A stretch of 64,000 nt of DNA from a virus. Numbering within the stretch: the stretch's first letter is position 1; each line of letters begins with the position of its first letter. The position numbers were made by a program, and so were the translations under genes. The stretch is taken from positions 20,215 through 84,214 of the IMG/VR virus record IMGVR_UViG_3300032213_001070; one strand, given 5' to 3'. The notes below the pieces were generated by a model that did not search any database, was not told the origin of the DNA, and saw only the letters and a list, made by a program, of their open reading frames with translations. Positions 18,101 to 43,737 of this stretch are shown here, piece after piece.

Positions 18101-18288
18101 TTCCAAAAGAAGAACCTACATATCAACCTTCTCAAGAAGAGATAGATATGTTAAATGAAAGTCTTGAAAATACAAATGAAGGTTTATCTGAGTTTGAACA
18201 ACTTGCAAAGTTAGAGGCGGATGCATATGCAGAAGGTGTAACACTTGATTCTTTAGAAAACAATTTCCTTAATAATATTAAATGTTAA
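12136..18288 (+). CDS. Giant virion protein with glycine-zipper segment and PD-(D/E)XK nuclease-like domain
   Basis: A 2050-aa protein. Residues about 232-268 form a hydrophobic, GxxxG-rich stretch (EGALIGAAVGAVAGEGIG) suited to membrane insertion; a second apolar patch is near 553-575. The middle (about 780-1600) is coiled-coil-like and charged. Around 1690-1770 lies a PD-(D/E)XK nuclease signature: GEIDMIIVD (Asp1700), then AFIADLKTGK (Asp1714, Lys1716), then a Q-type helix (QQTGYSNLLENM). The protein ends in ...NNIKC just before the RNA polymerase polyprotein. I infer a protein ejected with the polymerase that crosses the host envelope and carries a nuclease; activity is unproven. The size and neighbourhood fit polyvalent virion proteins of Bacteroidota phages. 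Confidence 0.7.
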   Translation: MAEETNIPDDGVNELSQKSPFIAPASIGMTEYKPITPPVLDIHDLNLKSNIDNPALRVKDTTTGSAPYHPKRVDSSDAPKFGGLDGIFAKTKAQLVQNVDNKVYNKMYAYDSSPKGAHKARYKAYGQETYDKIGFSPEIDNETWFNANTTMYDDWKRMATNAAWPMMKLGFISPIKSYGKLFGQADIGQDLAEARDYEEYNAIGYSTKGGIGGFAINLQNSAAYSVGIITESVVEGALIGAAVGAVAGEGIGAAPGAALGGIFEGISAIGRLPKTLYQMSKNLGKMTMNLKKLQNLSEVKNVFANAGRTMGNFVNPFTNTTEAAMKYVFKNPDDLTNLARSARTAGAMWHDVKNINAALSEGRLEGGFTEQRVYDDLYNKYYDKYGVAPTDELQKDMRKQAKVAGFQNTWKNTLLVNYSNKIAFPSITRAGFMKGLPTFSKTFGTVGPYQLIYDPAKKVAKEAYRIEKVSLKNAAKSLVKPATYGKTALNYFKANLVEGFQETAQDVLSNATEEYYTNSFKNKDRQNFDYSMATLGSALKKQISAQGAETFASGFAMGTILGIPGGVKEYLSVGYNKYFKNRANYDQYVAEREGEAQSIVDALNTMDKNAKHFFDPRLNNYVNQMLVGKVADDPDNVSAKEAKDASFAGFKSAVRTALRTGTFDMFIDNFQGYKQASPEDIEAAWSLEPGQGTKALEYIDSATKTAKDIASRWQFSKNKFKEVVNPNQFAEDTPERQMADIYNEAYLTGLDNLVFMGSAFDNNSERLSKMYTKLSSLSAIQNSRFSNFANIVEPEKLQKEIAMLRTDVELGKNATTPEAKEQYKKQKDLLEKLENYQSQQFGATVQFLKKLRDTQKSIMESEEGISASEAQQKALDQVVEEYDEQGLNSFEDYKNSYRELLDTLAGSEEDKVKLNRELDDAGGFDEFFQMLMDSYLLRNENTNLNKFINLLNDPKGFYEHVQRNFDWMKKLYDNRQDYYTDVVNNSMLAIQRNSLLEELAEKGIYVDLEEFAEWTEDNNNLPTYFIDQVNNRIINQDSYLYDQYIQLFVDASQIDSKNPPVKKSDKDQKLQKIVDDYNDQRDGELETVKNTYDRTLKELVGYTQEEIDEMISQATAESEMSEDDVKDEVKLIEKALKQLDSNNVVEIQAVFDIAVDKNMFTAQEYNLKKEDIFSDDALLEEMQAISERFTDVDEVEAQDAAANVMILKPLLESRLEVLNTYDQTKGLEGVPQYEDTKPYADYTKAVDEINKKYDNLIDEAEGRLAAETRADVEAKRPEAMKKTIKQIRDLIETKEDIVQTKRNYIVDGELHDRMSNRIKTGYDTYGYTGESDLVDVYDSTIGAALEGTADTKADLEAQKADIEKQKEVYKKMTKGTPIIKDNIKGTKIGDKYDDRLKVIVIDESLADNFDPKIADDNGQGYEVISKIKEYGEMENGVQTKAPKVEIIIFNNKEDANAFFEARKIKLDKNIADAELAALEQPTPPGVLTQNVIDAFIKELVDADLPGVNTNKFTVDIVRDELETLIAPEGTRLTKKTQKQIDSLNSQLADVESKLASVKDKKRLATLEKQKKRLEEVIKDEETGKYREPFEMTNDNIKSFVLNTVKENAFEESRDAGNILDPMLKNFLDTETSKKPAYDPKLMSKEAYDNLFDDETGYLTKFKKMADAGEIYIFTKNLYVHSNNLVDENGKKLPPVAGEIDMIIVDRKGRAFIADLKTGKVAKWLNYKTRGTKSFEKQIENTMQQTGYSNLLENMGTTVDGIMIFPLEIGFDSKGFIKSANAPTNPSLFAGEEVIGDEGTLPYTIQLDKGNNTQIKNEETGQYENISIDQFMQRLIPVKGKKTTQIKTKPAPTDVIPEEERALADEFMLKMANAKEFDDLTEVALELDEMKPNLSKETYNMLKYQLDTRMSMDLNIPNDIILNTDEIYIFTQPVKALKITEGYRVKIDMLDPETQKVIISRVGPGRTRSIEMSIKDFTENTMTEEQLNNLPKEEPTYQPSQEEIDMLNESLENTNEGLSEFEQLAKLEADAYAEGVTLDSLENNFLNNIKC

Positions 18289-18292
18289 TTAG

Positions 18293-21200
18293 ATGATTAC
18301 TTGTCCAATTACCCGGCAGCCTCTTGAAGATTTTTACAAGTATGTATACCGTGCTATTAATGATAAATTAAAAGACAATAAGACATTTGATGTAAATCAA
18401 TTTATGGAAGATTTATTTAAAAAGTCTTCTGAAAAGTCTGATCCTGAAACTGCAGCTAAGTGGTTACAGAGTACCCCAAGAGTAATTAATCTAATTGTTA
18501 CTAAATCATTCAGTGATAAGATTCCTTTAGTTAAAGGTCTAGATGGCATCTATGGTTTAATGACTGACTTTTCTAAACCAGACGGAGAAGGTCTTAAGAA
18601 TGTACTAGCTAAGTATGTAAAGAAACAAGATGTAAAAGATCTTAAACCTGTGATAGCTCATCAGTTATCATTAGAGTTTAGTACTGAAGAAGATGAGCCG
18701 GAGGGAGAAGATATACCAAAGAATTCACCTTCAGTTACTGCAAGACTTAAATCTACAATTCCATTTTCCGGAACCTTACCATCATTTACACCAGTAGATC
18801 CAAAGCAAAAGTCAGATACTTATATAGAGAAACTAGATAAACCAAGAGCACAGATATTAACCAATCTAACCAGGTTAGCAAATGCTTTTAATTCTACTGA
18901 TCCTTTTTCTGATTTTGTTTATCAAAATAAAAAGATCAGAATAAAAGCTGTTAACCTATATGCATTCTCACAACAGAACTTTAATGATCTAGATCCTACT
19001 ACTCAGGAAGAGATAAGGCTATCTGGAGTTATGGTGGCTATAGGTAATGCACAAGCCAATGTTACTCAAGCTGACAAAAGAGTATTATTAGTTGTTACAG
19101 ATGATAGTGGTCAGAATCTTTACTTTGATGAAGAGGGTAATATAACCAACAAAGGCAATGGGAAACTATTGTATCAGTTTATGCGGGATGTTAGAAACAC
19201 AGCAAAAGGATATGTGGTTACTGATATCTATGGTAATGAAGAACAATTGATGCCTATTTCAGAGTATGTGGCAAAAAACTATAACTCTGAGATTGATGGA
19301 GATCTTAATACCTTTACTGAGAAGGTTAAAGACCAACGGGAGAAAGAACTTAAGAGACTGTTTGAATTACGGGAAAAAGCATTGGGGTCAGAAGTTATGT
19401 TAGAGTTTGAGGGCCTAACGGAGGGAGTATCATCTGAAGTTACTGCAACAAGGTTACCTCTATCTGATTTCTTAAAAATACCAGGTTCTACTAAAGCTAA
19501 CTTGAAGACAATTAGAACTCTTAAAAAAGCAGAGGGTAAGTTTTTTAAAGGTTATGCTGTAATAAATCTAAATGGAACAGAGTTTCAAGTTAGAAGATCA
19601 TCTATGCCTGATTCTGTAGCTGACCAAATTGCTGCAGTTATGTTTGATCCTAACATACCTTTTGAAACTAAAAAGGATTTTTACTCACAGTTTATTCCAG
19701 AAGATAGTGACACTAAACTGGCATATACTATGCGTAAGCATGAGATCATACCTGACATGGAGAAGAAGTCATTTAGAATTAAACTCTATGATCAAGTAGG
19801 AGAGAAAGAAGGGTTCATGACAAAGCCTACTCATGATTTTAAAATTTCTGAAGCTTCATTGAAAAAAGCTAGTGAAGAGTCATTAGCAAATGGTAGAAAA
19901 CTACTTAGTGATATATTTAAAACTGGTAGATCAAACGGTAAAGCTACATACATGTCATACAAATCTGATCTACTAAATAGTGAAGATTACCTTGTATATG
20001 ATACTCAGACAAAACAGATTGATGTTGCAAACTATATTAATTTCTTATCAGGACTAGATGGTTATGTAATGTTGGTTGATGGAGACCCAGGGTTTTATAA
20101 TAAAACATTACTCTTTAATGAACCTACAGAACTTTCTAAAGATTTAAAAGAACAACCAGAAGAAGAAGAAGACTGGTTTGATCAGCAAATAAGAGAAGCT
20201 AGAGAATTTGCTGAAAAGCAAAAAGCATTAGAAAATGCAAGCAAGACTCCTGTAGAGATAGAGTTTGACTTTATTATTGATAGAGCATTATCTCCAGAAT
20301 ACAAAGCTCAACTGGAGCAGCAAGGTGTAAAAGCAAAAAGTAATAATTACTATTATGCAGCTAGTCTCATCCAATCTATAAATACAGACAGAAGATATAG
20401 TAGAGAAGTAGCAGAACAACTCCGAGACATGCTCTCAGGTTATATTGGAGCTTTATCTGATGCACAGATAAAAACAATTAACTCAGCAATAAATGCTGCA
20501 TTTCCGCAACTTAGTACACCTGTACAAAATGCAGTTGATATAATACAGAAAACTATTGAGCCGGAGATGCCGGATCCAACTACTGGTATTATAGAACCAG
20601 GTAGCAATCTTACACAAGATGAGCAAGATACACTTGATGAATTTGGTTTATTCCGTGCAGGTTATATTGCTGATGAAATTGGAGCTAAGGATTTAAAGAA
20701 TGTACTTAACTGGTGGAACAAAACTAAGATAGGCAAAGAACTACAAAAGCATATTAAACTAGAGCATGCTTATAATCTAGCTAACTCAGATGTATTTGCA
20801 AAGTTTGTAGTTAGTGGTGCCACTCTTACCAATCCGGATATTAAAGCACAGATCCAGATTAATCCAAACAAAGGTACCTTGGTAGATATCTATCATGAGG
20901 CTTTCCATGCATTCACACAGTTATATCTTACCCGTCAAGAGAAATACAATCTTTATGATGAGGTAAAAAACTATACAGATGCTAATGGTAAAGAGCCATA
21001 TAAAAACTTTTCATATAAGGATATAGATGAACTTCTTGCTGAAGACTTCAGAACCTATATGAAAACTAATTATATCAAGAAAGGTTCTCCTGTAAGAAAT
21101 AGATTGTTTAGAAAGATCTTAAACTTTATCCGGGCTTTATTTGGTAAAAAACCAATCAATCCTACTGAAGTTGTTACAGAAACTATGAATGTTCCAGCTG

Positions 21201-24200
21201 TTAGAGAGTTGTTTGAAAACTTAAATTACTCTTCAAACAAAAAATCATTTGTAAGAAAATATCAGGCTAACATAAGTAATGTAGATTGGTTTGAGCTTGA
21301 CCGGGGTATCAGCAAACTAAATAGACCAACAGATACGGCATTAAGCACACAAGACTCTCAGCTTATATCTGACTCAATGGATATGATTATCTCAGATATA
21401 GTTGATGATTATTACAAAGCTAGATTAAAGACAGGTAAAGTTACAAAGTCTGGTACTATTGGATTATTGCTTGATCCTGAAAAAAGACATGGTACTTATA
21501 AGATTATAGAAAAAAGATTACAGAAAAAACTTGATGAGTTTAAAACTAAATTACATTCTCAACCTGGTATAGCTCCATTTAGTGAGATAAAGAATTTAGA
21601 AGATATCCAAGAGAATGCTGTAGCTGTTTTAAAATCTGCTAAAGGTGAGGATAAATATGTATTCCTTAAGTCACAGATTGATGGTTTTGATAATCTTAAT
21701 CCTGAAATCAAAAAAGGTACAAGGATTAAAGGTGAATCTTGGCGCGGTATAAAAATAGTAGGTGACTTCTATTCACATAAATCTATTAAAAAAGATAAAA
21801 CACCTGTAAGTATTCTTGTTGTATCTAGTTTAGAAGATGCAAGACAACAGTTTGAAAATTATGTAGCAGGTGGTGCTAAAGAATATACTGACTTTGAAGA
21901 GAAAGATGTTCCTGATTACATGCTATCTGCAGAACAAGAGTTACTGTTAGATAATGTAAGAATACTACAAGCTGCATTAGATAACTATGGTGACCCAGAA
22001 TGGGAACTAAAAGGTATCCCACCTACTGGTACAATTGCATTCCACTTACAAAATTCTGACTTTGAACTTTCTAAAACTAAATATGAGTTAGATAAGAGCT
22101 TGCTAAATGAAGAAAATGAAGAAGAAGATGACCAAGAAAAAGATCAGTCACGTGATTCTGAAACTCCATTTGGTGGTGAAGCATCTAACAAAAAGTCTTT
22201 ACTGCAACTTGCATCTAAAGAAGTTATATACATACTTAAGAGTCTTAGTAAAGTTAATAGAGAGGGAGAAGTGTCTTATAACAGACTTGGGTTCAAAGAG
22301 CGCGCAGACTTTAGAAAAGTTTGGAATATAGTTACTAAAACTATTGGAGGTTTAAGAGATAGAGTTGATGCATATGATAAGTTAATGGAAGAAGCTAAGA
22401 ACTTCTCAGAGATAGCACAACTTATTGAAACTAAACTTCCGGATCCAAAAGCTATTTCAAGTATATTTGAGCAAGGTGTTAGTAATTCATTCTGGCAAAC
22501 ATTTGCAAAACCATCTGTAAAGTATTGGCAGTTTACTGTATTTCCTCAGTATGAGTCAGTAACAAATGAACTAACAGGTGAATCAGAAAATATTATTACT
22601 AGTTATGAATCTGAGGTAACTCAATCATCAATAGAAGTAGACAGTACTGTTAGAAAGTTTGAAGCTTTGTTTAAAAGCAGTCTTGCTAATGATTACATAG
22701 AAAAGAATTCTGCTAATCAATCACAGTTGAAACTAGCCAATCTAGTTAAGGGCTTTGAAGATAAATCTAATCCGGGACAACTAGATAAGAATAGATCATT
22801 TGAATTTGCAGCAGCATTAGGTATAAAGTTAGATGATTTACCAGTAATTAGAAAGAGTCTTGAGACTAAGTCTGATTATTATGGCCTACCTTATATATAT
22901 GATATTGCCAAAGATTTTTTAGCTATACAGTCTGCAGAGAAAAAGATAGGACAGCAAGAAGAGTTCTTAAATAAGTTTATTAGTAATCCTATTGGAACCC
23001 TCCGTGGGGAAATACCAAAAGGAGTATTAAAAACATTTAAGAAAGAAGTAACAGAGAAGAACATCTTAAAGAGACTAGCAGAACTGCAGTCTCAGTATGG
23101 ATATGATTCTGCTAATCCAGGAGTATTGCTTCCTGATGGAAACAGAGTATTTGAGAATGTAAATCATAGTGAGGTAACTGTAACTGTTGATGCACTTAAC
23201 AGAGTTACTAAATTAAGTGACTTATGGGAATCAGATGAATTCGGTTATATGGATCATTTAAAACCTGGTAAATCATTCTTTACTCTAAGATCAAAAGTCT
23301 TTGGGGCCCTGTTTGATATGTCTAAAAATACATCTGAAGAAAATTTATTTGATAAGAAGAGCAACAGATCCTTAGAACTTATTCAGACAGCAGGTACACA
23401 AATAGCTGATGTTGAAGGTGTTAACACATCTGACTTAGATAAAGCTGGTAAGTTTATGCAGGAGTTTCATACTTTCTTATTAAATGGTGTAGCTGAGTTT
23501 ATCCGACATGCTGAGAAAAAATCTGCATTTGGTATAAGACAAGTAGGTGGAAAACAGAAAGTGATTGTTAACGGTATTACAAATGGTGTTGATCAAAGCT
23601 TGTACATTGATATGAACAAGTTTATAAAACCAGGAGAAACACAACTAAGTCCAGGTGAGATAGTTGCTGTTGGTGGGTACTTCTTAGATTATATTGCTGT
23701 TGAGTTTGATAGAATCAGATACTTTAAACAAAACCCTAATGTTCTTGAAACTATAAAAGGTTATAACAGAGAGATCAAAGATGAACAAGGAAATGTTATT
23801 GCCCGTGCTGGTGAATTGTTTACTGTGTTTGATAACATCTTAAGAGATAAGACCAAGAAAGACTTATACAAGCTTACTTCAGATCCGGCATTAGATTTAC
23901 CTACATATGTAAGAAACAATCAAGAGTTATTCCTTAAAATACAAACAGATATTACTGATTACTTTAATGAGAAACTTGAGTCTCTTACTAAAGAGTATGT
24001 AGATAACTTAAATTTCATGGATGAGAAACTCTATGAAAAAGCAGGCATTTTAGAAAAAGATAGAAAAGGTGGATTAGCTACAGAACCGTTAGTTAAAGCA
24101 TATCTTTATAACAGCTGGATTCATAAGTTTGAGATGTTTAATATCTTTAATGGTGATGCATCTCAATTTAATCATGATAAACAAGAGGTACAGAAAAGAG

Positions 24201-27200
24201 CTCCGGGATCTACATCAGATGGTGATGCATTCTTGAATGATAAGTACATGCATAAGTTTATTAATAGTGTACTAAATAATAAAACATATGCTAAAGCTTT
24301 AGCTAAAGAACTTGGCAGAGATGACCTAGATAAATTTGTTTCTAATGGTAAGTTAAACACTGGAGTAATTGCGGATGCTGAAAGAAAATCTGTATATCTA
24401 GATGAAATGCTTGGAGCATGGGAGGAAAAATACCGTAAGGATTTAACTCCTATAATCAAAAATAAAACAGAATTAGAAAAAGCAATTAGTAAAAAGCTAG
24501 CTAAAGATGCTAAGGCTTATAAAGAAATGAAAGAGTCTGATGGTGCTGCATTTGTTACATTTGATGCATACCGTATTCTTAAGATTCAAGGTAACAGCTG
24601 GGCTCCTGCACAAGAGGAGTTATACCAAAAGATTATTGCTGGTGAAGAAGTAGACCCTTTAAAAGTAAAAGAGTTCTTCTCTATATATAAATTACACTAC
24701 TATGGGGCAATTGCAAATTCTCCCATAGCAGCAACAGCAATGCATAAGTTTGCGGTAGCTCCTATAATACCTAGCTTAGCAACTAAAGGAACACAGCTCT
24801 ATAATTTACATGTTAAAATGTTAGAAAACAATTTACAGTATGTAACATTTGGTTCTGGTTCTAAAGTATCTACTCTTACTACTACTGGTAGCTTTGATAA
24901 CATATTTGCTGATGCCAATCAAAAAGCGGTATCAATGGATGCTCCTATTAAAACTAATCAAATACACATTGAGTATCTTAAAGATGTGACTAAAGTAGCT
25001 ACTAAACTTAAGAAAGAAATTAGCTACCCAACACAAAAAAGGGTATTGTTGTTAGATGGTTTATTTAATGTAGGTGAAGCAATCAATAAAACAAGTGGAG
25101 AAATAGCTTCTAATTATAAAGCAGCAGTAGATAACTACACTGAAGTATTAACTCTTGACTTATTAAATAAAATAGGTTATGAGTTTGATAAAAATACAGG
25201 AAGCTATGTTGGTAAACTTGATAAGTTTATTGAACTTATTAGAGATGAATTAGGAGCCAAAGAAGTTCCTGATCATTTAATTAAACTACTAGACACAACA
25301 TTAGCAGGTAATCTGACAATGGATTTTTCTATTCACCCAGAGGCTGATACACTGGAAAAGGTTATTGTTAACCGTATTCAGAAGAGTGTGATTACTCAGA
25401 AGACTAAAGGTGAATCAATGGTTCAGGCACCATCTACATTCTATAATGGAGTATGGGATACTGCATTTGAAAGAGATGAAGCTATCAAAAAGAATGATGA
25501 GTTAATTAAAAAATTCTTAGGTTCAAATGTTTTACCTTTCTATAGAACAGGGTTTGATGAAAAGGGTAACAGAATAGCTACTCAAGCTATGAAGGTTGCT
25601 ATTCCATTCAATGGTGACTTTTTAAATTTATTAAATTTAAAGCACCCGGATGGAGAACCAATTGGAAACAGAGACCGCCTAAATGATTTAATTAAGAATG
25701 ATGCTTGGTTAAATGAAAACAAAGACTTAATTACTATTGCTGGTCCAAGGATCCCGACTGATGCTGCCAACACAATGGAATTTGCTGAAGTATGGCACTT
25801 TATTGACCCTGCTCAAGGTAATACAGTAATTGTACCAACAGAGATAGTTGCAAAAGCTGGATCTGACTTTGACGTTGATAAGATATATTTCATGATGCCT
25901 AATATCAATTCAAAAGGAGAATTAGTAAAGGCACCTGCTGAAAGTATGGAAGATCTTAAAGCTTTGGTAGATAAATCTAATAAAGCAAGTAAGAAAGAAA
26001 GAAAAGAAAAAGGATTGATGAATCCTCAAGCTTTAATAGATCAGTATAAGAAAGCAGCTCAAAATAAACTTATTGAAAGTACAAAGGCAATCCTTTCATT
26101 ACCAGACAATTATGCTAGCTTAACTAAACCAAATAATACATACTTGGTAGAAGATGAGGTAGAGTTCTATGACACATATGCTAGAGGTTATAACAATAAG
26201 TTAAATGCCCATCAAGAAGGTGTAAGAATGAATGGTAAAGATGAAGTTATGAGCCCATCAAGAATATTTGATGAGGACTATAACTTAAGTGTCCATGAGT
26301 CTAACTTATCGGGAAGCTTACCATTAGGTATAATGGCTAAGAAAAATAAAGTACATAGTTTGTTTAAGAGTATAGGTGCTCTTATGCCTAAGTCATACAG
26401 AGCTACTGTATGGAATGATGAAACAAAAAGATATGATGAGTTAGAGGCAGAGTATGATGTTGTTATCAATATGAAGCATAACAAAACTAGAAATGCTAAA
26501 GGACAAGAAGTAGTTTCTCTATCTAATGAAAACAATGTAGATGGTGAAAAAATTGGTGATATATTCTCACATGGTCTTCAGGGATTACTTGACCGAGCTA
26601 AGAATCCTTTTCCATTTAAATTGCAGATTGTAAAAGAAGCATTATCTACTATCAACCATCTTATTGAAGCTGGTGTAAGTGTACCAGAAACATTTGCATT
26701 TGTTAATAACCCATGGATTGTTAAGTATATTGAATACCAAATGCGTTTTGGTGGTTCAACATCTAAGTTCATGTCTATACCAATTCTTAAACATCAGGTT
26801 AAGGCTGCAGCAATGAAGCAAACTATTGATGATATGATTTCAGCCGGTGGTACTAGTATGAAAAAGTTTATAAGTGAGCTAGTTAATATTGCAAATCAAA
26901 AAAGATTAGCTGACACAGTTACAATGCTAAAAAAACAAGAGAAGTCAAAGAAATATAATTACATGCTAGAAGGTATTGATGTACCATTTACAGCAACTGT
27001 AGAAGATATGGTTTTCAAAAAAGGCTTCCAGTTAAATAAGATTGCGCTTTTAAAAGAAGTTGATCCTACTAAAGGGTTTGATAAACAGAAGGTAGTATTC
27101 AGTAAATCAAAAAGTATAACAAACAATGATAACTTTTACTATGCTGCACAGGCTGCATGGCAAAAAACTTTTGGAAATACTTATGCTAATGAATCAGAAT

Positions 27201-29506
27201 TAAAATCTCTTGTAAGAGGTGGATTGTCTCCAACACCACAGAACCTAGCTATCTTGTTACATATGTTGCAATTAGAAAAGCAATTCAAAGGAATGGATGA
27301 GCTAGAAATGGCATTTAGTCCGGATACTGGATTACTTGATACTACATTACAAGTTAAAAAAAGAGATCAAGCTTTGAAATTATTCTCAGAAGGTTCTAAG
27401 ATTGATAAAGATTTCTTAAATAGATTAAGATATGATTCCATTCTATCATCATTCTACAAGAGTGATATGATAATGGATTTAGTAACACCATTATTCTCAT
27501 TAAGATTGAATGACCAAATATCAAACTTTATTGAGAAGAAGATTAATCTAAACAAAGATATCATAGCTCAAAAGTATGGCCCAGGAATTAAAGGTCAAGA
27601 GAGATTTATTAACATGTACAATAATGCAGTAGTAAATTACATCTTCCAAAACACTATGTCTAATTATCCTGATGAGTCTGGACAACCAGTTCTTATTCCA
27701 GATACAATACATACCTTTCCTGTTACTCAAGTAGAAAAAGGTCCTGCGGTTATATTAAATGAAAAAGGCTTTAGAGTAAATTTTAAAAAAGCTCAGGAAG
27801 ATTATAAAAACAAAATCTTCTTAACTACTAACAATACAGATGAGAGCTATGCTAAAACTGGTCAGGATGCATTTACTCCACGGGAGAATCCTTTCCCAAC
27901 ATTCTCAAGCTACTTAAAGTTCATTACAGAAAAAGAATATTTAAGCAGTATATACCCTGATCAGACTGATGTCTTTTTAACTCAGACAGCACTTATGAAT
28001 AACTTTAACCGTGCTTTTATTATGGGTACAACAAAGTATTCATATACTAATATGGTTATGGATATCATTAGTGAGTTTGAAGATCAAAACATAAAAGAAA
28101 ACTATCCGGTATTAGCTCAGCTAGCACCAGCTAAGTTTGTTAAAGATGTAAATGTTATTGAGTTAAATGATAAGGCAACAGCCAAAGGAGTTATTGCAGA
28201 AGATTATTATAAGAATCTAAAACAATTAGCGGATCCAACAGTAAGAAAAGTTACCTATACAGATAAGACTAAACAAAAACAAGATAACCAAAGAATAACT
28301 GATGTATTCAAGGACTTCTCACTGCTTATGTTTTATCAACATGGTACAGGATATTCTAGATTAGGTTTTGGAAAAGTATTAGATCCAGAATCTTTTGTAA
28401 AAAAAATGCAGTATGCTTCTAATGCTTTCTTGAATAACAATCTATCAGAAGAAACATTTGAAAGAATCTATAACAGATTCATTACTAAGTCACAGTTTAA
28501 AGATTATACTATTGACCCAAGTAATCCAGATGCTTTTGAATCTTCAGAAGATATACTAAGTGAATTCTCTGAAGAAGACTTGATAGAAATGGGATTACTA
28601 CAACCAGGACAAAAACCTACTCAACCATCTACTAGTATTAAACCTTCTGATTTTACTAATCATTCTGGTGGTGCATATGGAGGGGATACTTTCTGGGATA
28701 TTATTGGTAGAGAATTTGGAGTTACTAATCATAAACACTATAAAGATGCGGGTAATCCTAATTTATCTCAAAAATTAAGAAATGCAGGTGTTAAAGCTAC
28801 AATTCTTACTAAAGAACAGATGGATACTGCAAGAATTGAGGTGGAAAAATTACTTGGAGAAAAATATCCTGATACTTTACAAGGAAACTTACAAGTAAGA
28901 AATTATTATCAAGTAGCTAATGCAGATGCTGTATTTGCTGTTGCTGAAATAGATTCTGGTACAAAGCCTGGAGTTTTTGGTGGAACAAATACTGCTGTTC
29001 AATTAGGTATAAAACTAGGTAAACCTGTATATGTATTTGATTTAGATACCAAGAAATGGTATACACAAGATACAGAGTATCTTGAAACTGGTTATGATAA
29101 AACTAAACATGAATGGAATTACAATGGTTGGATAGAAATACCTACACCTACTCTTACTAAAAACTTTGCTGGTGTAGGATCAAGAGATATTGAATCTTAT
29201 AATGTACAAAAGGATGGTAAATGGGTGCCAAGAGATAAATACAAAGGTAAAGAAACTGAAGAAGCTGCTAAACAAGCTATTAGAGATGTATATACTAATA
29301 CATTTGCAACTCCTACCACTCAACCTACAGCTATTCAGACTGCTGCAGCAACACCGTTAGATAAAATAAATGAATTTTATAACAGTCTTACTCAGGAACA
29401 AAAAGATAAATTAGGTAACTTAGATGACTTGATTGCTGAGTATAATGATGTTCCGTTTGACTATCCGGTAGAAGATTATATTGAAAGTATTAAATGTAAG
29501 TTATAA
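18293..29506 (+). CDS. Giant virion RNA polymerase polyprotein (zincin - RNAP - SLOG-like)
   Basis: A 3737-aa polyprotein. It opens with MITCPITRQPLEDF. A zincin site HEAFH lies at residues 868-872 (IYHEAFHAFTQLYL). The RNA polymerase core is clear: GPRIPTDAANTMEFAEVW followed by VAKAGSDFDVDKIYFMMP, where Asp2525, Asp2527 and Asp2529 match the metal-binding DxDxD loop of double-psi beta-barrel polymerases such as the crAss-like phage virion polymerase. Downstream, MAKKNKVHSLF is a candidate second-barrel segment. Residues about 3457-3650 resemble a SLOG/LOG Rossmann domain (HSGGAYGGDTFWD, then GGTNTAVQLGIKLGKPVYVF). It likely travels in the capsid and transcribes early genes after ejection. 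No intein junctions were seen. Domain functions are by motif; packaging is inferred from the family. Confidence 0.85.
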   Translation: MITCPITRQPLEDFYKYVYRAINDKLKDNKTFDVNQFMEDLFKKSSEKSDPETAAKWLQSTPRVINLIVTKSFSDKIPLVKGLDGIYGLMTDFSKPDGEGLKNVLAKYVKKQDVKDLKPVIAHQLSLEFSTEEDEPEGEDIPKNSPSVTARLKSTIPFSGTLPSFTPVDPKQKSDTYIEKLDKPRAQILTNLTRLANAFNSTDPFSDFVYQNKKIRIKAVNLYAFSQQNFNDLDPTTQEEIRLSGVMVAIGNAQANVTQADKRVLLVVTDDSGQNLYFDEEGNITNKGNGKLLYQFMRDVRNTAKGYVVTDIYGNEEQLMPISEYVAKNYNSEIDGDLNTFTEKVKDQREKELKRLFELREKALGSEVMLEFEGLTEGVSSEVTATRLPLSDFLKIPGSTKANLKTIRTLKKAEGKFFKGYAVINLNGTEFQVRRSSMPDSVADQIAAVMFDPNIPFETKKDFYSQFIPEDSDTKLAYTMRKHEIIPDMEKKSFRIKLYDQVGEKEGFMTKPTHDFKISEASLKKASEESLANGRKLLSDIFKTGRSNGKATYMSYKSDLLNSEDYLVYDTQTKQIDVANYINFLSGLDGYVMLVDGDPGFYNKTLLFNEPTELSKDLKEQPEEEEDWFDQQIREAREFAEKQKALENASKTPVEIEFDFIIDRALSPEYKAQLEQQGVKAKSNNYYYAASLIQSINTDRRYSREVAEQLRDMLSGYIGALSDAQIKTINSAINAAFPQLSTPVQNAVDIIQKTIEPEMPDPTTGIIEPGSNLTQDEQDTLDEFGLFRAGYIADEIGAKDLKNVLNWWNKTKIGKELQKHIKLEHAYNLANSDVFAKFVVSGATLTNPDIKAQIQINPNKGTLVDIYHEAFHAFTQLYLTRQEKYNLYDEVKNYTDANGKEPYKNFSYKDIDELLAEDFRTYMKTNYIKKGSPVRNRLFRKILNFIRALFGKKPINPTEVVTETMNVPAVRELFENLNYSSNKKSFVRKYQANISNVDWFELDRGISKLNRPTDTALSTQDSQLISDSMDMIISDIVDDYYKARLKTGKVTKSGTIGLLLDPEKRHGTYKIIEKRLQKKLDEFKTKLHSQPGIAPFSEIKNLEDIQENAVAVLKSAKGEDKYVFLKSQIDGFDNLNPEIKKGTRIKGESWRGIKIVGDFYSHKSIKKDKTPVSILVVSSLEDARQQFENYVAGGAKEYTDFEEKDVPDYMLSAEQELLLDNVRILQAALDNYGDPEWELKGIPPTGTIAFHLQNSDFELSKTKYELDKSLLNEENEEEDDQEKDQSRDSETPFGGEASNKKSLLQLASKEVIYILKSLSKVNREGEVSYNRLGFKERADFRKVWNIVTKTIGGLRDRVDAYDKLMEEAKNFSEIAQLIETKLPDPKAISSIFEQGVSNSFWQTFAKPSVKYWQFTVFPQYESVTNELTGESENIITSYESEVTQSSIEVDSTVRKFEALFKSSLANDYIEKNSANQSQLKLANLVKGFEDKSNPGQLDKNRSFEFAAALGIKLDDLPVIRKSLETKSDYYGLPYIYDIAKDFLAIQSAEKKIGQQEEFLNKFISNPIGTLRGEIPKGVLKTFKKEVTEKNILKRLAELQSQYGYDSANPGVLLPDGNRVFENVNHSEVTVTVDALNRVTKLSDLWESDEFGYMDHLKPGKSFFTLRSKVFGALFDMSKNTSEENLFDKKSNRSLELIQTAGTQIADVEGVNTSDLDKAGKFMQEFHTFLLNGVAEFIRHAEKKSAFGIRQVGGKQKVIVNGITNGVDQSLYIDMNKFIKPGETQLSPGEIVAVGGYFLDYIAVEFDRIRYFKQNPNVLETIKGYNREIKDEQGNVIARAGELFTVFDNILRDKTKKDLYKLTSDPALDLPTYVRNNQELFLKIQTDITDYFNEKLESLTKEYVDNLNFMDEKLYEKAGILEKDRKGGLATEPLVKAYLYNSWIHKFEMFNIFNGDASQFNHDKQEVQKRAPGSTSDGDAFLNDKYMHKFINSVLNNKTYAKALAKELGRDDLDKFVSNGKLNTGVIADAERKSVYLDEMLGAWEEKYRKDLTPIIKNKTELEKAISKKLAKDAKAYKEMKESDGAAFVTFDAYRILKIQGNSWAPAQEELYQKIIAGEEVDPLKVKEFFSIYKLHYYGAIANSPIAATAMHKFAVAPIIPSLATKGTQLYNLHVKMLENNLQYVTFGSGSKVSTLTTTGSFDNIFADANQKAVSMDAPIKTNQIHIEYLKDVTKVATKLKKEISYPTQKRVLLLDGLFNVGEAINKTSGEIASNYKAAVDNYTEVLTLDLLNKIGYEFDKNTGSYVGKLDKFIELIRDELGAKEVPDHLIKLLDTTLAGNLTMDFSIHPEADTLEKVIVNRIQKSVITQKTKGESMVQAPSTFYNGVWDTAFERDEAIKKNDELIKKFLGSNVLPFYRTGFDEKGNRIATQAMKVAIPFNGDFLNLLNLKHPDGEPIGNRDRLNDLIKNDAWLNENKDLITIAGPRIPTDAANTMEFAEVWHFIDPAQGNTVIVPTEIVAKAGSDFDVDKIYFMMPNINSKGELVKAPAESMEDLKALVDKSNKASKKERKEKGLMNPQALIDQYKKAAQNKLIESTKAILSLPDNYASLTKPNNTYLVEDEVEFYDTYARGYNNKLNAHQEGVRMNGKDEVMSPSRIFDEDYNLSVHESNLSGSLPLGIMAKKNKVHSLFKSIGALMPKSYRATVWNDETKRYDELEAEYDVVINMKHNKTRNAKGQEVVSLSNENNVDGEKIGDIFSHGLQGLLDRAKNPFPFKLQIVKEALSTINHLIEAGVSVPETFAFVNNPWIVKYIEYQMRFGGSTSKFMSIPILKHQVKAAAMKQTIDDMISAGGTSMKKFISELVNIANQKRLADTVTMLKKQEKSKKYNYMLEGIDVPFTATVEDMVFKKGFQLNKIALLKEVDPTKGFDKQKVVFSKSKSITNNDNFYYAAQAAWQKTFGNTYANESELKSLVRGGLSPTPQNLAILLHMLQLEKQFKGMDELEMAFSPDTGLLDTTLQVKKRDQALKLFSEGSKIDKDFLNRLRYDSILSSFYKSDMIMDLVTPLFSLRLNDQISNFIEKKINLNKDIIAQKYGPGIKGQERFINMYNNAVVNYIFQNTMSNYPDESGQPVLIPDTIHTFPVTQVEKGPAVILNEKGFRVNFKKAQEDYKNKIFLTTNNTDESYAKTGQDAFTPRENPFPTFSSYLKFITEKEYLSSIYPDQTDVFLTQTALMNNFNRAFIMGTTKYSYTNMVMDIISEFEDQNIKENYPVLAQLAPAKFVKDVNVIELNDKATAKGVIAEDYYKNLKQLADPTVRKVTYTDKTKQKQDNQRITDVFKDFSLLMFYQHGTGYSRLGFGKVLDPESFVKKMQYASNAFLNNNLSEETFERIYNRFITKSQFKDYTIDPSNPDAFESSEDILSEFSEEDLIEMGLLQPGQKPTQPSTSIKPSDFTNHSGGAYGGDTFWDIIGREFGVTNHKHYKDAGNPNLSQKLRNAGVKATILTKEQMDTARIEVEKLLGEKYPDTLQGNLQVRNYYQVANADAVFAVAEIDSGTKPGVFGGTNTAVQLGIKLGKPVYVFDLDTKKWYTQDTEYLETGYDKTKHEWNYNGWIEIPTPTLTKNFAGVGSRDIESYNVQKDGKWVPRDKYKGKETEEAAKQAIRDVYTNTFATPTTQPTAIQTAAATPLDKINEFYNSLTQEQKDKLGNLDDLIAEYNDVPFDYPVEDYIESIKCKL

Positions 29507-30432
29507 TGAGTTGTATTAATAAGGCAGATAAAGCATATAAAGCTCTCCAAAATGTTTATGGAGATGCACTGGCAGAAGCTTTTGTACGGGCTCATCCTTT
29601 TAATAAAGGTAAGTCTGAAGATATAAACTTTGATATACCTAGTAAAAAGGAAGTTAAAGATTGGCTTACTGAACAAAAACAAAACATACCAAAGAATATT
29701 AAGAGAGCCTTAGAACTTAACCCATATCTTTCTGAGACTGCACTTAAAAGCATGCTTAAAGGTGTTGTTAGTACATTTAAAGACAGAATGTTTATAACTA
29801 CAGGTTGGTTGTTTTCCGGATCCAGTGCATTAGGTCAAGAGGTATTTGAAACTATCTATAAGCCTAACATGGCTGTTATGAATAATCTAGCAGACAACTA
29901 CCCGGATATCTTCAGATTAATCCCTACTAAGAATGCATATACAACTATGGTTGAAATAACACCAAGAGTTAAAGCAGAAGAAGAGGCAGAAGAAGGTGAG
30001 GTTCTAGAAGATGATGAACTTAAAACAGATGAGCCTGCAATAGTTGAAAGCATAAGAACATACAGGTCAATTGTAGATAATAACAATGGCCGTAAACCTA
30101 TAGAGTTTATGGCTGGTGACTTAAAGTGGCAGTTAAACAATAAAGGTTTATACAATCTTGTAGATAAGTTTACTAATGCTGTATATGTTAGAAATATAAA
30201 TTTAGAAACTGGTGAAATGATTCCTGAAGTATTACCAGAGACCCCGGTAGATGAAGCAAAAAGAGATAGAATCTTTAGATCAGTTATGCAAATGATTAAA
30301 GAACAAAAACTAGATGAGTATCTTGCTGTAAAAGGTATTGACACTGCAGATATATATGAAGCTTTAAGAGATGCTGAAACTGATAATGATTTGAATAAAG
30401 TTATAGAAACAATATTAAAAGCAGTATGTTAA
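29506..30432 (+). CDS. Virion-associated protein, unknown
   Basis: A 308-aa protein whose start shares one base with the polymerase stop (TAATG) and whose end overlaps the next gene by 7 bp, so the three are tightly coupled. The N-terminus has a Cys at position 3 and an AYKALQNVYGDALAEAFVRAH helix, similar in layout to the small N-terminal module of the next protein. The middle has an acidic stretch (EEEAEEGEVLEDDE, about 158-171) and the protein ends ...KAVC. No catalytic motif is visible. The position suggests a partner of the polymerase polyprotein or a detached segment of it. Confidence 0.55.
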   Translation: MSCINKADKAYKALQNVYGDALAEAFVRAHPFNKGKSEDINFDIPSKKEVKDWLTEQKQNIPKNIKRALELNPYLSETALKSMLKGVVSTFKDRMFITTGWLFSGSSALGQEVFETIYKPNMAVMNNLADNYPDIFRLIPTKNAYTTMVEITPRVKAEEEAEEGEVLEDDELKTDEPAIVESIRTYRSIVDNNNGRKPIEFMAGDLKWQLNNKGLYNLVDKFTNAVYVRNINLETGEMIPEVLPETPVDEAKRDRIFRSVMQMIKEQKLDEYLAVKGIDTADIYEALRDAETDNDLNKVIETILKAVC

Positions 30433-33400
30433 GTTGTCCTAGAAAAAATAGTAGAGAGTGGCAAGCTATTCTTGCAGAAACTCACGGTAATGAGGAAGAG
30501 GCTCAAAGACTATGGGTTGAAAGAGAGTTTGATACTAATCCTGATCTTAATGAAGTAGTTAAAGATGAGAACTATGAGGATGAAAGACAAGGTGAACCAG
30601 GGCAGGAAGAGCTAGAACCTAATGATGATTTTTCTAGATTAATACAGAGAATCAAGATATATATCAATAGACAGATTGAGATTCTTAACAGTAAGAAAAT
30701 TGCTAATAAAAAGTATAAGCAATCTAAACTTAAAAAACTTCTTACTGAGATGGAGGCATTAGAAGGTGTAGCATCTATAAATATATTTGTAAAAGATGCT
30801 TATGATAAATCTCTACAGGTAAGAGCTAGAATGAATAAGCTACTTGCTAATAAAGGTAAGATGTCTTCTAAAGAGGTAATGATTGAGCTTACCGGATTAA
30901 ATGATTTTGCAAATAGCTACTCTATATTAGATGAGATTGACTCAGCTGATATTTTAAATTACTTTACCACAGCTTCAGAACAAGAAATGATGGGTCCAAT
31001 AACTCCACAAAAAATGTTAACGGATGCTATTTCAATAAGACAAAAGGTAAAAGAAAAAGTAATTACTCAGGGTATACCTTTATTAGCAGAGTTCTTAGTA
31101 GAATACAAATCTACTTTACAAGATACTACTATTGCAGATACTGTTGCTGCTCTTGAAAAAGAAATAGAAGATATACAGAATAATGCTAAGATGCCAGATG
31201 AGAAAAAAGAAAAGCTCATCAAAGAAAAACAAGATAGGATTAAAACATTTGAGACATTTGATGTTGACCAAGCTTCTATTGAAAAGATACTTAAAGAAGC
31301 ATCAAGTGATATTGGTGTGCTTGATTTCTTAATCTCCCCTCTTATTACATCTTCTGACAGTGCATTAGCATTATTTGCTAAAGCAATCAAGAGCCAGTTA
31401 GAATTTGCTAGACAAAAAGATATTAAAGTCAGAGACAGTTTGGTAAAAGCTTTTGAAAAATATAGAGCTGTTGCCCCGGCAAGTTCTGATAATACTGCAA
31501 AGTTTAATGAAGGTATCTATGAGGAAGTAGATATACCTATCTATGATGAAAAGGATGAGATATCCGGCTATAGAAAAGAAGTTCAGTTTGTACAGAAGTA
31601 TGACATGAGTAAATTTAATAAAGCCAGAAGTGAGTTCTTTAAACAACTTGGTGCTTTACCAAAACCTGTAGGAGAAAAACCTACTAAAGAAGAGAAAGCC
31701 AAAAGCAAAGCTTGGTGGGAGGCTAGAAATAAATGGTATAAAGAAAATACTCAACCTAGACCAAAAGCAGAAAGAGATGCTATAATTCTTCAGATGCAGA
31801 CTGATAGAGACAATAAACTCATTAGTCAAGAAGATTATGAAAAATGGGAAAGAAAAAACATTAGAGAATACAAAGGTGAAGTGACTTACTTTGAAGATTT
31901 AGCTGTACCTGCAGATAAATATAAAAGTGATAAATGGAATGCCATGTATGATTCTAATGATGTTGCAAAGAATGAGAAAGGTAGATATCATGCTGAGTTA
32001 CTTAGAATATATCAAGAAGCTCAGGATAAATTACCAGAATCACAACAACCAGGATTCAGAGTACCATCTGTATCTAAGTCTGACTTAGAAAGATTAATGC
32101 AGAACGGTATCAAAGATTTAATAAAAACTAATGTTAGTGAAGCAGTTAGACTTCAGTCATGGGATACAGAGTTTGCATTAGGAACTTTATCAGAAGAAGA
32201 TGCTAAGTTCTTACCGGTATACTATAATCAACCCATAGATGCAAAAGATGTAACATTAGATTTAGCTTCTTCAGTATTGTTATTTAGTGCAATGGCAAAT
32301 AAATATGAGGCACTTAACAATGTAAATGCTGAGATATCTTTAATGAAAACTATTGTTGGTGCCCGCAGTGTACCTGTTACAAATAGTAAAGGACAAGCTG
32401 TACTAGATGCTTTTGCTAACAAGCTAGGTTATGAGGAGTACATCCGGCAGAATGGAGAATCTTATTCTAAAAAACACTTGAATGCATTTATAGATATGGT
32501 TATCTATGGTGAAATGCAAAAAGCTGAAGAAATCTTTGGTGGTTTATCACTTACTAAGATTACTAATACTGCTATGTCTTATTCAGCTATCACAACTATT
32601 GCTGCTGACTTGCTTAAAGGTGTAGCTAATAACCTACAGGGAAACATTCAAGTACTTATAGAAGCGGTAGGTGGTCAGTTCTTTAACCGCGCCAACTTAA
32701 GAAGAGGTAAATCTTTTCTAGCAAAAAATCTACCTAGTATATTAGGAGACTTTGGTAAACCTGCACCAACAAGTTTAGTTGGAAAACTAGTAGAGAAGTA
32801 TGATCCTATGCAAGGTAACTTCAAAGATAACTATGGTAAAAAGATAAGTATGGGTGTAGCTAATAAACTTTTCCGTACAGATACATTATTCTTTAACCAG
32901 CACTTTGGGGAATATGAGATTCAAGTATCTACTATGTTAGCTTTATTTGATAATATCAAAGTACTAGATACTCAAACTAATGAAGAGATAACTTTACTAC
33001 AAGCCTATAATATCTATGGTGCTGATGAAGCACAAAGCAAAATAAAAATTGCTAAAATGGATAGCAAAGGTCAACCGGTTACAGATGACCAAGGTAATCA
33101 GGTATATGTACCATTTGGAGAAACCCAGAGACAAGATATACAAAATAGACTACATGGATTAAACAAATACATGCATGGTGTCTATAATGACTTTGACAAA
33201 GGCACATTACAAAAGTATTCATTAGGTAGACTAGCAATCATGTGGAGAAAGCATGTTGTTCCTGGATATAAAAGAAGATTTAAAAGAGTATCCATGGACC
33301 ATGAAATTGGGACACCAACAGAAGGATACTATAGAACTTTTATTATGACAATGAGATCAGATCTTAAACAGTATAAATATAATATTATTAAGAACTGGTC

Positions 33401-41240: not shown

Positions 41241-42410
41241 TTACTTGACAGCCATCTTCACCACGTCCTTATTCATCATAAGTTGTGCAAACTTAACCTT
41301 GTTTCCATTGACAATCTCCTTGATGATATAGTATCTAAGGTCATCAGTAAATGCATCACAGTCTGTAGTAAGCTTGATTAGTCTTTGAGTCATTCCGCTC
41401 GGAACAGGCTTAGTATCTGCAAACACCAATGAATAATTTATTAATCTGGTTGCAATCACACTAGATATGTCTGCTCTAAAGTCATCATCTTTACCTACAG
41501 CATTTGTTAATGCATTCATTACATATTGCTCATCTTTAGTAAGTGTATCTTCAGGTGAGATAATCTTATCCAACTTGTTGTTAATGAACATAGTAAACAT
41601 AGAACTAAAGTCTACACCAACAGAACCCTCACCAATCATTTGAATTAGAGGCAGGTCTGCTTCAAACTTAGGAATAGAGCTAATAGCATTAAAGAAAGTA
41701 GTAATAGATCTTGGATTAACTCTTTGAGTTACCAATTCTGGGTGCATCAACATAAAGTTAATACATCTACCATCTATTCCTGCAGTCTCAGCCCACTTAG
41801 CCCATACGTTTACATCATACTTCAACTCCACAGATACAAATCTTGTCTTCTGAGCTACATCCAAGCTAGTTACATTATAGTCACCATTGTCCGGATTAGT
41901 AGTCAAGATCACATGCCAGTTCTTAGGAAGCTTCCATGATACATATTCCTGTCTATCTAAGATCTCCATAGTAGCTTGCATAAATCTATGGTCAGCCCGG
42001 GTATAGTCATCAAGAATCAAGAAACCACCTTCTCCTTTACCTTGAATCCATTCAGGAGCAGCATGTGACATACGCTTACCAATAACTTTGTAACCTTTCT
42101 TAATGGCTGCATCTATCTGAGCTTCATTAATCCAAGTAGTTTTACCTTCTGCATTCTGTATTTCAAATTCTTTTACAGGAAAACCAACTAAGTCACCTAA
42201 TTCTTCCAACTGAGATAAATTCAGCTTTACTACTTGCATGTCCATTTCTTTACCCAACTGCATGATAGCAGAAGTCTTACCCAGACCAGCATCACCCTCA
42301 ATATTAATAGCTACGGGAACCTTACCCTCTGCTTGAATATACTGATTGTTGTTAACCATGTGCTTAATAAAGCTCTTTAACTCTTCTACATTCAATTGTA
42401 CTTGACTCAT
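41241..42410 (-). CDS. AAA+ ATPase, MoxR-like
   Basis: A 389-aa AAA+ protein. Walker A is GDAGLGKT (39-46), Walker B is GGFLILDDYTRAD (about 127-139), and sensor 1 is in VILTTNPDNGDYN. The segment LDVAQKTRFVSVELKYD fits the MoxR/CoxD-type group that works with VWA-domain proteins, and the adjacent upstream gene indeed encodes a VWA protein (10 bp gap). Such pairs act as metal-insertion or complex-remodelling chaperones in bacteria. In this phage the substrate is unknown. The unit ends at the hairpin at 41164-41181. Confidence 0.85.
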   Translation of the reverse strand: MSQVQLNVEELKSFIKHMVNNNQYIQAEGKVPVAINIEGDAGLGKTSAIMQLGKEMDMQVVKLNLSQLEELGDLVGFPVKEFEIQNAEGKTTWINEAQIDAAIKKGYKVIGKRMSHAAPEWIQGKGEGGFLILDDYTRADHRFMQATMEILDRQEYVSWKLPKNWHVILTTNPDNGDYNVTSLDVAQKTRFVSVELKYDVNVWAKWAETAGIDGRCINFMLMHPELVTQRVNPRSITTFFNAISSIPKFEADLPLIQMIGEGSVGVDFSSMFTMFINNKLDKIISPEDTLTKDEQYVMNALTNAVGKDDDFRADISSVIATRLINYSLVFADTKPVPSGMTQRLIKLTTDCDAFTDDLRYYIIKEIVNGNKVKFAQLMMNKDVVKMAVK

Positions 42411-42420
42411 AATCTTTAAT

Positions 42421-43428
42421 TTATAATTCTAATTTAATTACTTTACCTGGTAAATCATTATTCATATAGGACTGCTCTGATAAAACCCATAGGATGTTCC
42501 CTTTTGGTTTTACAGAATAACCACATTCACCATCAGTAAAATACACCAGGCTAGTATATTTCTTTAGGTTTTCATTATAATATTCCAGGACGGGATCAAA
42601 CTCAGTCCCACCTCTTCCGTGTATATTCATTTCATGCTTTCCTGTATAAGGTTTGATAGAATGTATTTTAGTATCACATTGTACTATAGTAATATCAACA
42701 CCTGCCTTATAGATATGATGAATCTCATTCATAAACTCTTTGAGCTCATCATCACTTACAGAACCTGAAGTATCTATAGCTAAAAGCATATGTTGTTTCA
42801 TCTTAATCTTGAGACCCGGATTGTCACTAAATCTTCTATTCTCTTTCCGCCTGATTTTCTTGGTAAATACTTTTGTACTGATTCCAGTAAACCTACGGAT
42901 ATACCCTCTCCAGTCAAACTTAGGTGGTACAATCTCCTCAACTACAATAACTCCTTCTATCTCACCAGGAACAGTACCACGTTTCTTAACAGTTTGCTCC
43001 TTAGCATCACTAAGCACTTTCTGCAATTGCTTTTCAATTAACTTTTGCTCAGCTTCAGTAAGATTATCAAACTCTTCCCAGGTACCATGATCAGGAACAT
43101 TACCCATATCAATATTGTCAAGAAGATTGTCCATTGCTTGATTACCGCAAGTACCATTCTTCTCTTTCTCATCTTTAAACTCTTTAAGCTTGTCATAGTA
43201 ATATCTACAACCTGCTCTAAGTTCAAGATTCATATCAGCATAGTCTTCTATAAAAATACCTCTACCAGGAGCATTCTTAAGTATCTCAGCTATTTCTTCA
43301 GGACTAGCTCCTGTTTCTATAGCTGCAGACATTTCAAGTTTTAGTTTTTCATTCAATGCTTCATATTCTTCTTTAGAATATTCTCCGCCCGGCAACCAAG
43401 ACTTTTCAATGTACTGATTGATTTCCAT
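42421..43428 (-). CDS. Metallopeptidase/VWA protein (DUF2201-like), exon 2: VWA domain
   Basis: Exon 2 of an intron-split gene (335 codons plus stop); the spliced protein would be 434 aa. It carries the VWA domain with the MIDAS motif LAIDTSGSVS (Asp at about residue 318 of the spliced protein) and ends in GRGGTEFDP and VYFTDGECG. Upstream are a linker with EEFDNLTEAEQKLIEKQLQ and a basic ERF-type region FDWRGYIRRFTG typical of DUF2201-like proteins. An ATG at 43446 gives an apparent separate ORF, but its first six codons lie in the intron. The true exon begins MEINQYIEKSWLPGG, the usual continuation of the metallopeptidase domain. Partner of the AAA+ protein downstream. Confidence 0.85.
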   Translation of the reverse strand: MEINQYIEKSWLPGGEYSKEEYEALNEKLKLEMSAAIETGASPEEIAEILKNAPGRGIFIEDYADMNLELRAGCRYYYDKLKEFKDEKEKNGTCGNQAMDNLLDNIDMGNVPDHGTWEEFDNLTEAEQKLIEKQLQKVLSDAKEQTVKKRGTVPGEIEGVIVVEEIVPPKFDWRGYIRRFTGISTKVFTKKIRRKENRRFSDNPGLKIKMKQHMLLAIDTSGSVSDDELKEFMNEIHHIYKAGVDITIVQCDTKIHSIKPYTGKHEMNIHGRGGTEFDPVLEYYNENLKKYTSLVYFTDGECGYSVKPKGNILWVLSEQSYMNNDLPGKVIKLEL

Positions 43429-43737
43429 CATTTGTGTTAGCTGCATGTTTCCCTGCAGATCGGACTATACCTTCACCCCAGTAGGGTGGCTTATTGTAGT
43501 CTCTGAACCTCTTTCTTTAAAATAGTTTTCAAATTTATTCTTCTTTCTGTCTAACTTTTTAAAGAAATTTGGCTGCGGATCACCCATTTGGACATCTCTA
43601 TCTTTTTTACTATACCTGAATAATTAGTTCAGCCACATACTACCTCACGGTGCATGCTTAGTAGATAGAGCTTTAGGATTTTCCCGTCAATTTAAAGCTT
43701 TCTCTTACACATTACTGTGCAACGGGACTAGGAATTA
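43429..43737 (-). ncRNA. Group I intron (309 nt, no ORF)
   Basis: On the - strand all four group I core elements are readable in order: P TTGACGGGAA (43681-43690), Q GATCCGCAGCC (43571-43581), R GTTCAGAGACTACAA (43494-43508), S AAGGTATAGTCCG (43461-43473). P7 pairs GACTA with TAGTC; P8 is CACCC/GGGTG; P9 is CTGCA/TGCAG; P4 can pair CGGG with TCCG; an extended P6 pairs TTTCTTTAAAA with TTTTAAAGAAA. The 5' exon ends GGAT and pairs with GTCC at the internal guide, giving the required U.G pair, while TTCC beside it can pair with GGAA in exon 2 (P10). The intron ends in G. It starts with TAA, stopping translation of unspliced RNA, as in T4 introns. Confidence 0.92.

Follow-up and report, generated by a model that had tools for sequence, protein, structure and literature searches.

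The gene block and its giant polymerase

The DNA analysed here, hereafter the window, is a stretch of 64,000 nucleotides that occupies positions 20215-84214 of a virus record 84214 bases long, and the coordinates given below are those of the window. A block of four plus-strand genes encodes the proteins P1 (12136-18288, 2050 aa), P2 (18293-29506, 3737 aa), P3 (29506-30432, 308 aa) and P4 (30426-33857, 1143 aa). The P2 frame opens with ATG and contains no internal stops, and on grounds of similarity we assign its product as the multidomain catalytic subunit of a crAss-like virion RNA polymerase (vRNAP). Its catalytic region (residues 2150-2839, 24740-26809) was matched at 1e-283 by a crAss-type RNAP HMM, which was built in this work with the window included in it, and the polymerase region was matched at 6e-10 by tblastn to Crassvirales cr108_1; GPRIPTDAANTMEF is found at residues 2484-2497, and the DxDxD loop SDFDVDK at residues 2524-2530 (25862-25882). 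The preliminary description of this DNA had identified a virion RNA polymerase from that loop, an identification borne out here as crAss-like, and all the motifs it had placed in the frame were found at their positions. Further, upstream of the window lies a structural gene with matches in Flavobacterium and Cellulophaga phages as well as in the crAss-like csAssE-Sib, and the phage is therefore crAss-like. A PDB sequence search with the whole P2 chain gave no match, and a second RNAP core scan found nothing. In cr108_1 (L117:9506-21096, gp054/gp053), the RNAP gene is broken within the DxDxD motif (...AKAGSD / YDIDK...); an intron, of which other crAss-like phages offer known cases, is the probable cause.

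P2 resembles gp66 (PDB 6VR4) of Cellulophaga phage phi14:2 and crAss001 gp50/gp47/gp49, these being DxDxD double-psi-barrel-type polymerases carried in a giant virion chain and encoded in the same gene block, and differs from gp66 in length, the latter having 2180 aa. The phi14:2 proteins gp65-67 are annotated from mass spectrometry as virion-packaged, and crAss001 virions package gp47, gp49 and gp50 (PMC10172136); by homology with these two phages, P2 would be packaged in the virion and injected.

Residues 868-872 of P2 (20894-20908, +) constitute a HEAFH motif within a putative zincin region (about 20600-21592, +). The chance expectation of HExxH is 0.03 per protein of P2 composition, and the motif is kept in 15/15 non-redundant relatives; in the alignment it is followed by a conserved ExxAExFR helix (ELLAEDFR in P2, 21029-21052), with ExxAE located ~40 residues downstream in most relatives. 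Because of HEAxH and this conserved helix, the region is probably a zincin. The zincin proposed in the preliminary description thus holds for the motif, which displays a gluzincin-like spacing, and remains putative as to its fold: the AlphaFold model of residues 770-1100 was poor (pLDDT 53.7) and matched nothing, a PDB search with the zincin profile gave no match, and when its profile was compared with that of the N4 HExxH region, the two motifs aligned at a non-significant probability of 4%. Elsewhere in the window (41241-43446, minus strand), a weak MoxR-type AAA match adjoins a VWA/DUF2201 protein whose N-terminal part is a putative metallopeptidase, a pair that is unusual in phages; a VWA-like gene is also present in crAss001 (gp52).

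A SLOG domain in an exchangeable slot

The C-terminal domain of P2 (residues 3445-3690, 28625-29362, +) carries the SLOG motifs HSGGAYGGDTFWD (residues 3457-3469) and GGTNTAVQLGIKLGKPVYVF (residues 3563-3582), and residues 3453-3599 match phrog_768, annotated as 'DprA-like', at 3e-8. An AlphaFold model of residues 3440-3695, built from an alignment of 17 homologues, reached a pLDDT of 85.7 and a pTM of 0.83, and its best match was 3IMK, a putative 'molybdenum carrier' (Foldseek probability 1.00; Z 12.1 over 147 residues), followed by DprA (4ljk, Z 6.3) and by unrelated folds with Z of 5.7 or less. The SLOG-like Rossmann region noticed previously is thus supported by the model. Since the order of its motifs is permuted, with SGGxxGxD first and GVGSR last, a feature shared with standalone phage homologues (L002, L071, L109), the domain is assigned from the modelled fold and the alignment to the circularly permuted YpsA type (cpYpsA), a specific SLOG type that is new here beyond the earlier SLOG-like call. 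The only PF12694 match was weak and partial, in the relative L006 (E 0.09, below the curated cut-off), with none in the window protein. Fold and permuted motif order are shared with 3IMK, PF12694 cpYpsA and phrog_768, from which the P2 domain differs in being longer (about 245 aa), in its insertions and in a Gln at the conserved acidic position of LOG proteins. The LOG phosphoribohydrolase motif is PGGxGTxxE, with a catalytic Glu; in P2 the corresponding GGTNTAVQ has a Gln that is nearly invariant among the aligned homologues (GGT-x-x-A-V-Q), so that the domain departs from this motif. The net charge of the domain is near zero in most copies, with no excess of positive charge.

Close relatives share ~70% identity with P2 over residues 1-3450 and over the C-terminal 47-66 residues, while the stretch between them differs. 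After this slot comes a conserved 47-aa tail ending in KCKL (29363-29503, +), recognized by identity with L022 and also present in L024, L026 and L027. Among these relatives, whose RNAP regions are 73-80% identical, the slot contains macro-like, SLOG and AlkB domains in L022 and L023, NADAR, SLOG and AlkB in L024, an unnamed domain with AlkB and no SLOG in L026, and only a macro-like domain, again with no SLOG, in L027; in the window it holds SLOG alone. The NADAR assignment has a Pfam value of 4e-13, and the macro-like cargo matches A1S_2505 in L022 (1.7e-34) and DarG in L023 (1.4e-3), with TARG1 as top hit of a PDB profile search (E 0.11). The unnamed domain, also present in L015, looked ASCH-like by eye, an assignment supported by no library. 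Further uncharacterised cargo was observed in the vRNAP giants L020, L050 and L042, including DUF7831 (6.6e-35, L050) and DUF1848 (1.8e-18, L042); in large phages, L095, L101 and L104 are small two-domain proteins with the A1S_2505 macro-like domain fused directly to the same SLOG.

At the DNA level, only nucleotides 28617-29332 show 85-87% identity with L006, L007 and L019; these loci share the SLOG cassette, but their polymerases have almost no DNA similarity to that of the window. The last 193 nt of the P2 gene, in turn, are 98.4% identical to L022, which carries a different SLOG. This pattern leads us to regard the SLOG of P2, on the DNA comparisons, as a mobile cassette exchanged between polymerases. 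Consistently, SLOG identity did not correlate with RNAP identity over 528 pairs (Spearman 0.05); L019 and the window share 20% identity in the RNAP and 82% in the SLOG. The cassette is under purifying selection (dN/dS about 0.15-0.3, window versus relatives).

The distribution of the domain was assessed in a sample gathered by SLOG, which informs on SLOG attachments and not on the share of vRNAPs carrying it. From 69 non-redundant loci, 40 combined SLOG and a crAss-type RNAP in a single ORF (36 after the RNAP and 4 before it), 16 of these 40 ORFs additionally containing NADAR, AlkB or macro-like domains; 5 were N4-type vRNAP ORFs, 13 were small proteins (one of which, cr272_1, is part of a recoded giant), and 11 lay elsewhere. 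A related SLOG is thus found in the vRNAPs of Klebsiella phage Pylas and Alteromonas phage PT15-A5 (Schitoviridae), which unlike P2 display a T7-like RNAP fold in a single chain without any cysteine. In Pylas this SLOG separates the N4 NTD from the RNAP part, and in L059 a SLOG separates RNAP from CTD; in a quick tree the four N4-type copies fell in separate places among the crAss copies, at least three of them forced by supported branches. In PT15-A5 the SGGxxGxD loop is lost, and nucleotide binding may therefore be dispensable there. The macaque-gut crassvirus cr130_1 encodes a single 5801-residue ORF, with 74 internal TAG read as Gln, that comprises HEAFH, DFDID, SLOG and NADAR, its GenBank name reflecting the SLOG only; likewise, the Crassvirales giants L112 (NC_055901), L116 (NC_055892) and L032 (NC_055896), labelled 'DprA-like DNA recombination-mediator protein' because of the SLOG cassette alone, are virion RNA polymerases.

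From the N-terminus on, P2 thus consists of a region with a probable zincin, the RNAP core, a cargo slot near the C-terminus and the conserved tail, an architecture of several unrelated effector-type domains (HExxH region, RNAP and SLOG) in one chain that resembles the multidomain injected polyvalent proteins, which include the N4 vRNAP fused to zincin, ART and lysozyme (Iyer 2017, PMC5512222), injection of P2 being assumed by homology. It departs from them in its crAss-type RNAP, in the SLOG, macro, NADAR and AlkB cargo of a swappable slot, and in the use of several chains with coupled ends. The same families co-occur and are fused in the viral SLOG/Macro/NADAR network, for which an anti-ADPr role was proposed, although its proteins are mostly standalone and, in the available part of that source, vRNAP fusion is not seen (Iyer 2022, PMC9503650); the word crAss is absent from its main text.

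Cysteines at the facing ends of the block proteins

P1 to P4 contain 6 Cys in 7238 aa, all at facing chain ends (binomial P 7e-13). The single Cys of P1 is its last residue, Cys2050 (18283-18285), which faces Cys4 of P2 (18302-18304, +); the second and last Cys of P2, Cys3735 (29495-29497, +), faces Cys3 of P3 (29512-29514), whose other Cys is the terminal residue 308 (30427-30429) and faces the single Cys of P4 at residue 4 (30435-30437). Every junction thus has Cys on both sides, and the outer ends of the block, including the C-terminus of P4, have none. The same pattern is observed in phi14:2, where C1797 is the only Cys of gp67, C3 and C2179 those of gp66, and C3 that of gp65 (4/4 terminal, P 8e-9), and in crAss001, with C2339 alone in gp47, C5, C1334 and C2404 in gp50, and C5 alone in gp49 (4/5 terminal, P 2e-8). 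In total, 12/12 junctions from 8 genomes and at least two families had Cys on both sides, and none of the tested outer ends had one; the background frequency of terminal Cys was 1/45 CDS at the N-terminus and 2/45 at the C-terminus. The crAss001 gp47 gene lies on the other strand, apart from gp50 and gp49, and still obeys the rule, which therefore operates at the protein level; a DNA effect of overlapping genes is ruled out by the same gene. Mere cysteine avoidance was also rejected, as the remaining residues are non-random in place.

Among 40 metagenomic RNAP ORFs the rule was followed in 34, and most of the six exceptions were fragments or had a neighbour missing: L011 has no Cys and its locus no partner, L012 has inserted ORFs, L060 is a fragment of a recoded gene, L062 is a weak fragment match, L089 has its Cys 13 residues from the end, and L107 has a C-terminal Cys with the next ORF outside the locus. 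In L006 and L010, which have P2 and P3 as one fused chain, the Cys pair is absent at the fusion point; in L027, which has P2 in two pieces, a new pair is present at the split. The N4-type single-chain polymerases examined contain no cysteine at all. Regarding internal cysteines, their depletion was noted in the window, phi14:2 and other environmental phages and is missing in TAG-recoded gut genomes, whose loci (L004, L056, L060, L061, L083, L085, L108) keep the terminal pairs and have many internal Cys; perhaps the depletion is relaxed in anoxic habitats. A literature search, with the original phi14:2 paper outside its coverage, found no report of the terminal-cysteine pattern in crAss-like vRNAP blocks.

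Delivery of the chains and role of their cargo

From the presence of Cys at facing ends, their loss upon P2+P3 fusion, their gain upon P2 splitting and their retention in crAss001, we infer that P1, P2, P3 and P4 may be coupled head to tail by disulfides joining each C-terminal Cys to the N-terminal Cys of the next chain. The coupled chains would traverse the narrow tail in a fixed order, like a single thread, and would be released by reduction in the cytoplasm. Extended to the giant RNAP proteins of Crassvirales, this proposal, to which we give an even chance, predicts a covalent train packaged head to tail, in which fusion and Cys coupling would be interchangeable and which would bear swappable defence-countering modules. 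It would account for all the terminal-cysteine observations. Interchain disulfides are known in the tail of crAss001 virions, and the authors of that work proposed that the cargo must partly unfold for constrictions under 50 angstroms (PMC10172136). Two points count against the train, namely the many internal Cys of TAG-recoded gut phages and the assembly of phages in a reducing cytoplasm. Less probably, the terminal Cys could serve another role, such as a shared metal site, a packaging recognition tag or an attachment to another virion protein, given that our knowledge of these residues consists of their positions; this fits poorly with a single Cys per end, where extra Cys/His ligands were not seen, with pairs that occur at inner ends only, disappear on fusion and arise on splitting, and with the pairing of gp47, encoded apart and on the other strand.

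As for the cargo, the explanation that we favour, with some reserve, is that P2 is an injected crAss-like RNAP chain with a counter-defence SLOG in a swapped slot, travelling in the disulfide-coupled P1-P4 train. The SLOG would be delivered among the first phage proteins, would bind or process a NAD/ADP-ribose-type nucleotide and would thereby blunt host defence ahead of any phage gene expression, the slot cargo being swapped as host defences change. The link to nucleotide-based host defence at entry that the preliminary description had suggested for the SLOG is supported indirectly by the NADAR, macro-like (A1S_2505/DarG-like) and AlkB-like domains that close relatives carry in this slot. NADAR, macro and SLOG are predicted as a set countering ADP-ribose-based immune signals (Iyer 2022, PMC9503650). 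The mobility of the cassette, the alternatives in its slot and the occurrence of SLOG in N4-type polymerases favour a role at entry against ADP-ribose- or nucleic-acid-based defences, soluble signals and DNA lesions being inseparable here as targets. Points against this reading are the nearly invariant Gln at the LOG catalytic Glu position and the loss of the SGGxxGxD loop in PT15-A5.

Three other roles were considered. A possible, less probable one is that the slot enzymes clean the template for reading by the polymerase: DarG/TARG1-like macro or NADAR domains would strip ADP-ribose, and AlkB alkyl groups, from incoming phage DNA or its RNA, while SLOG would bind nucleic acid or lesions. Nucleic acid is the substrate of both AlkB-like enzymes and SF1 helicases; the former are present in 9/40 ORFs and the latter in L007, L013, L019, L020, L042, L044, L070 and L074, while NADAR occurs in L024 and L042. 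The DarG and TARG1 matches point in the same direction, as DarG reverses DNA ADP-ribosylation by a macro or NADAR domain (PMC11481870); however, the SLOG is cpYpsA-like, with DprA second and a near-neutral charge in most copies, and it is the only cargo of the window. It is rather unlikely that SLOG is instead the polymerase's own sensor or structural module, exerting allosteric control by host NAD/ADPr state or acting as a folding spacer: its location in linkers of N4-type vRNAPs, the allosteric control of RNAP by the N4 CTD (PMC12633501) and the sensor roles proposed for some SLOG fusions in Iyer 2022 (PMC9503650) would suit such a module, but exchange between polymerases of 20% identity and across two unrelated folds, and absence from the close relatives L026 and L027, are at odds with a part tuned to one polymerase. 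A DprA-like recombination mediator, binding ssDNA and loading RecA on incoming DNA as the GenBank names of the cr130_1 and cr109_1 giants and the phrog_768 and 4ljk matches would imply, is improbable in view of the superior 3IMK match, the permuted motif order and the lack of excess positive charge.

The cassette slot and the coupled chain-end cysteines, both missed by the preliminary description, are the parts most worth following. With the slot, injected polymerases would double as vehicles for candidate counter-defence domains ahead of phage gene expression, and the interval between the RNAP core and the conserved tail offers a route to search for such candidates. The cysteine rule allows a direct and cheap test in two cultured phages, in part with existing mass-spectrometry data. 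The question of how megadalton cargo passes a tail channel of under 50 angstroms, and in which order, arises for both crassviruses and N4; if true, cysteine coupling would make the separate crassvirus proteins thread the tail like one polypeptide.
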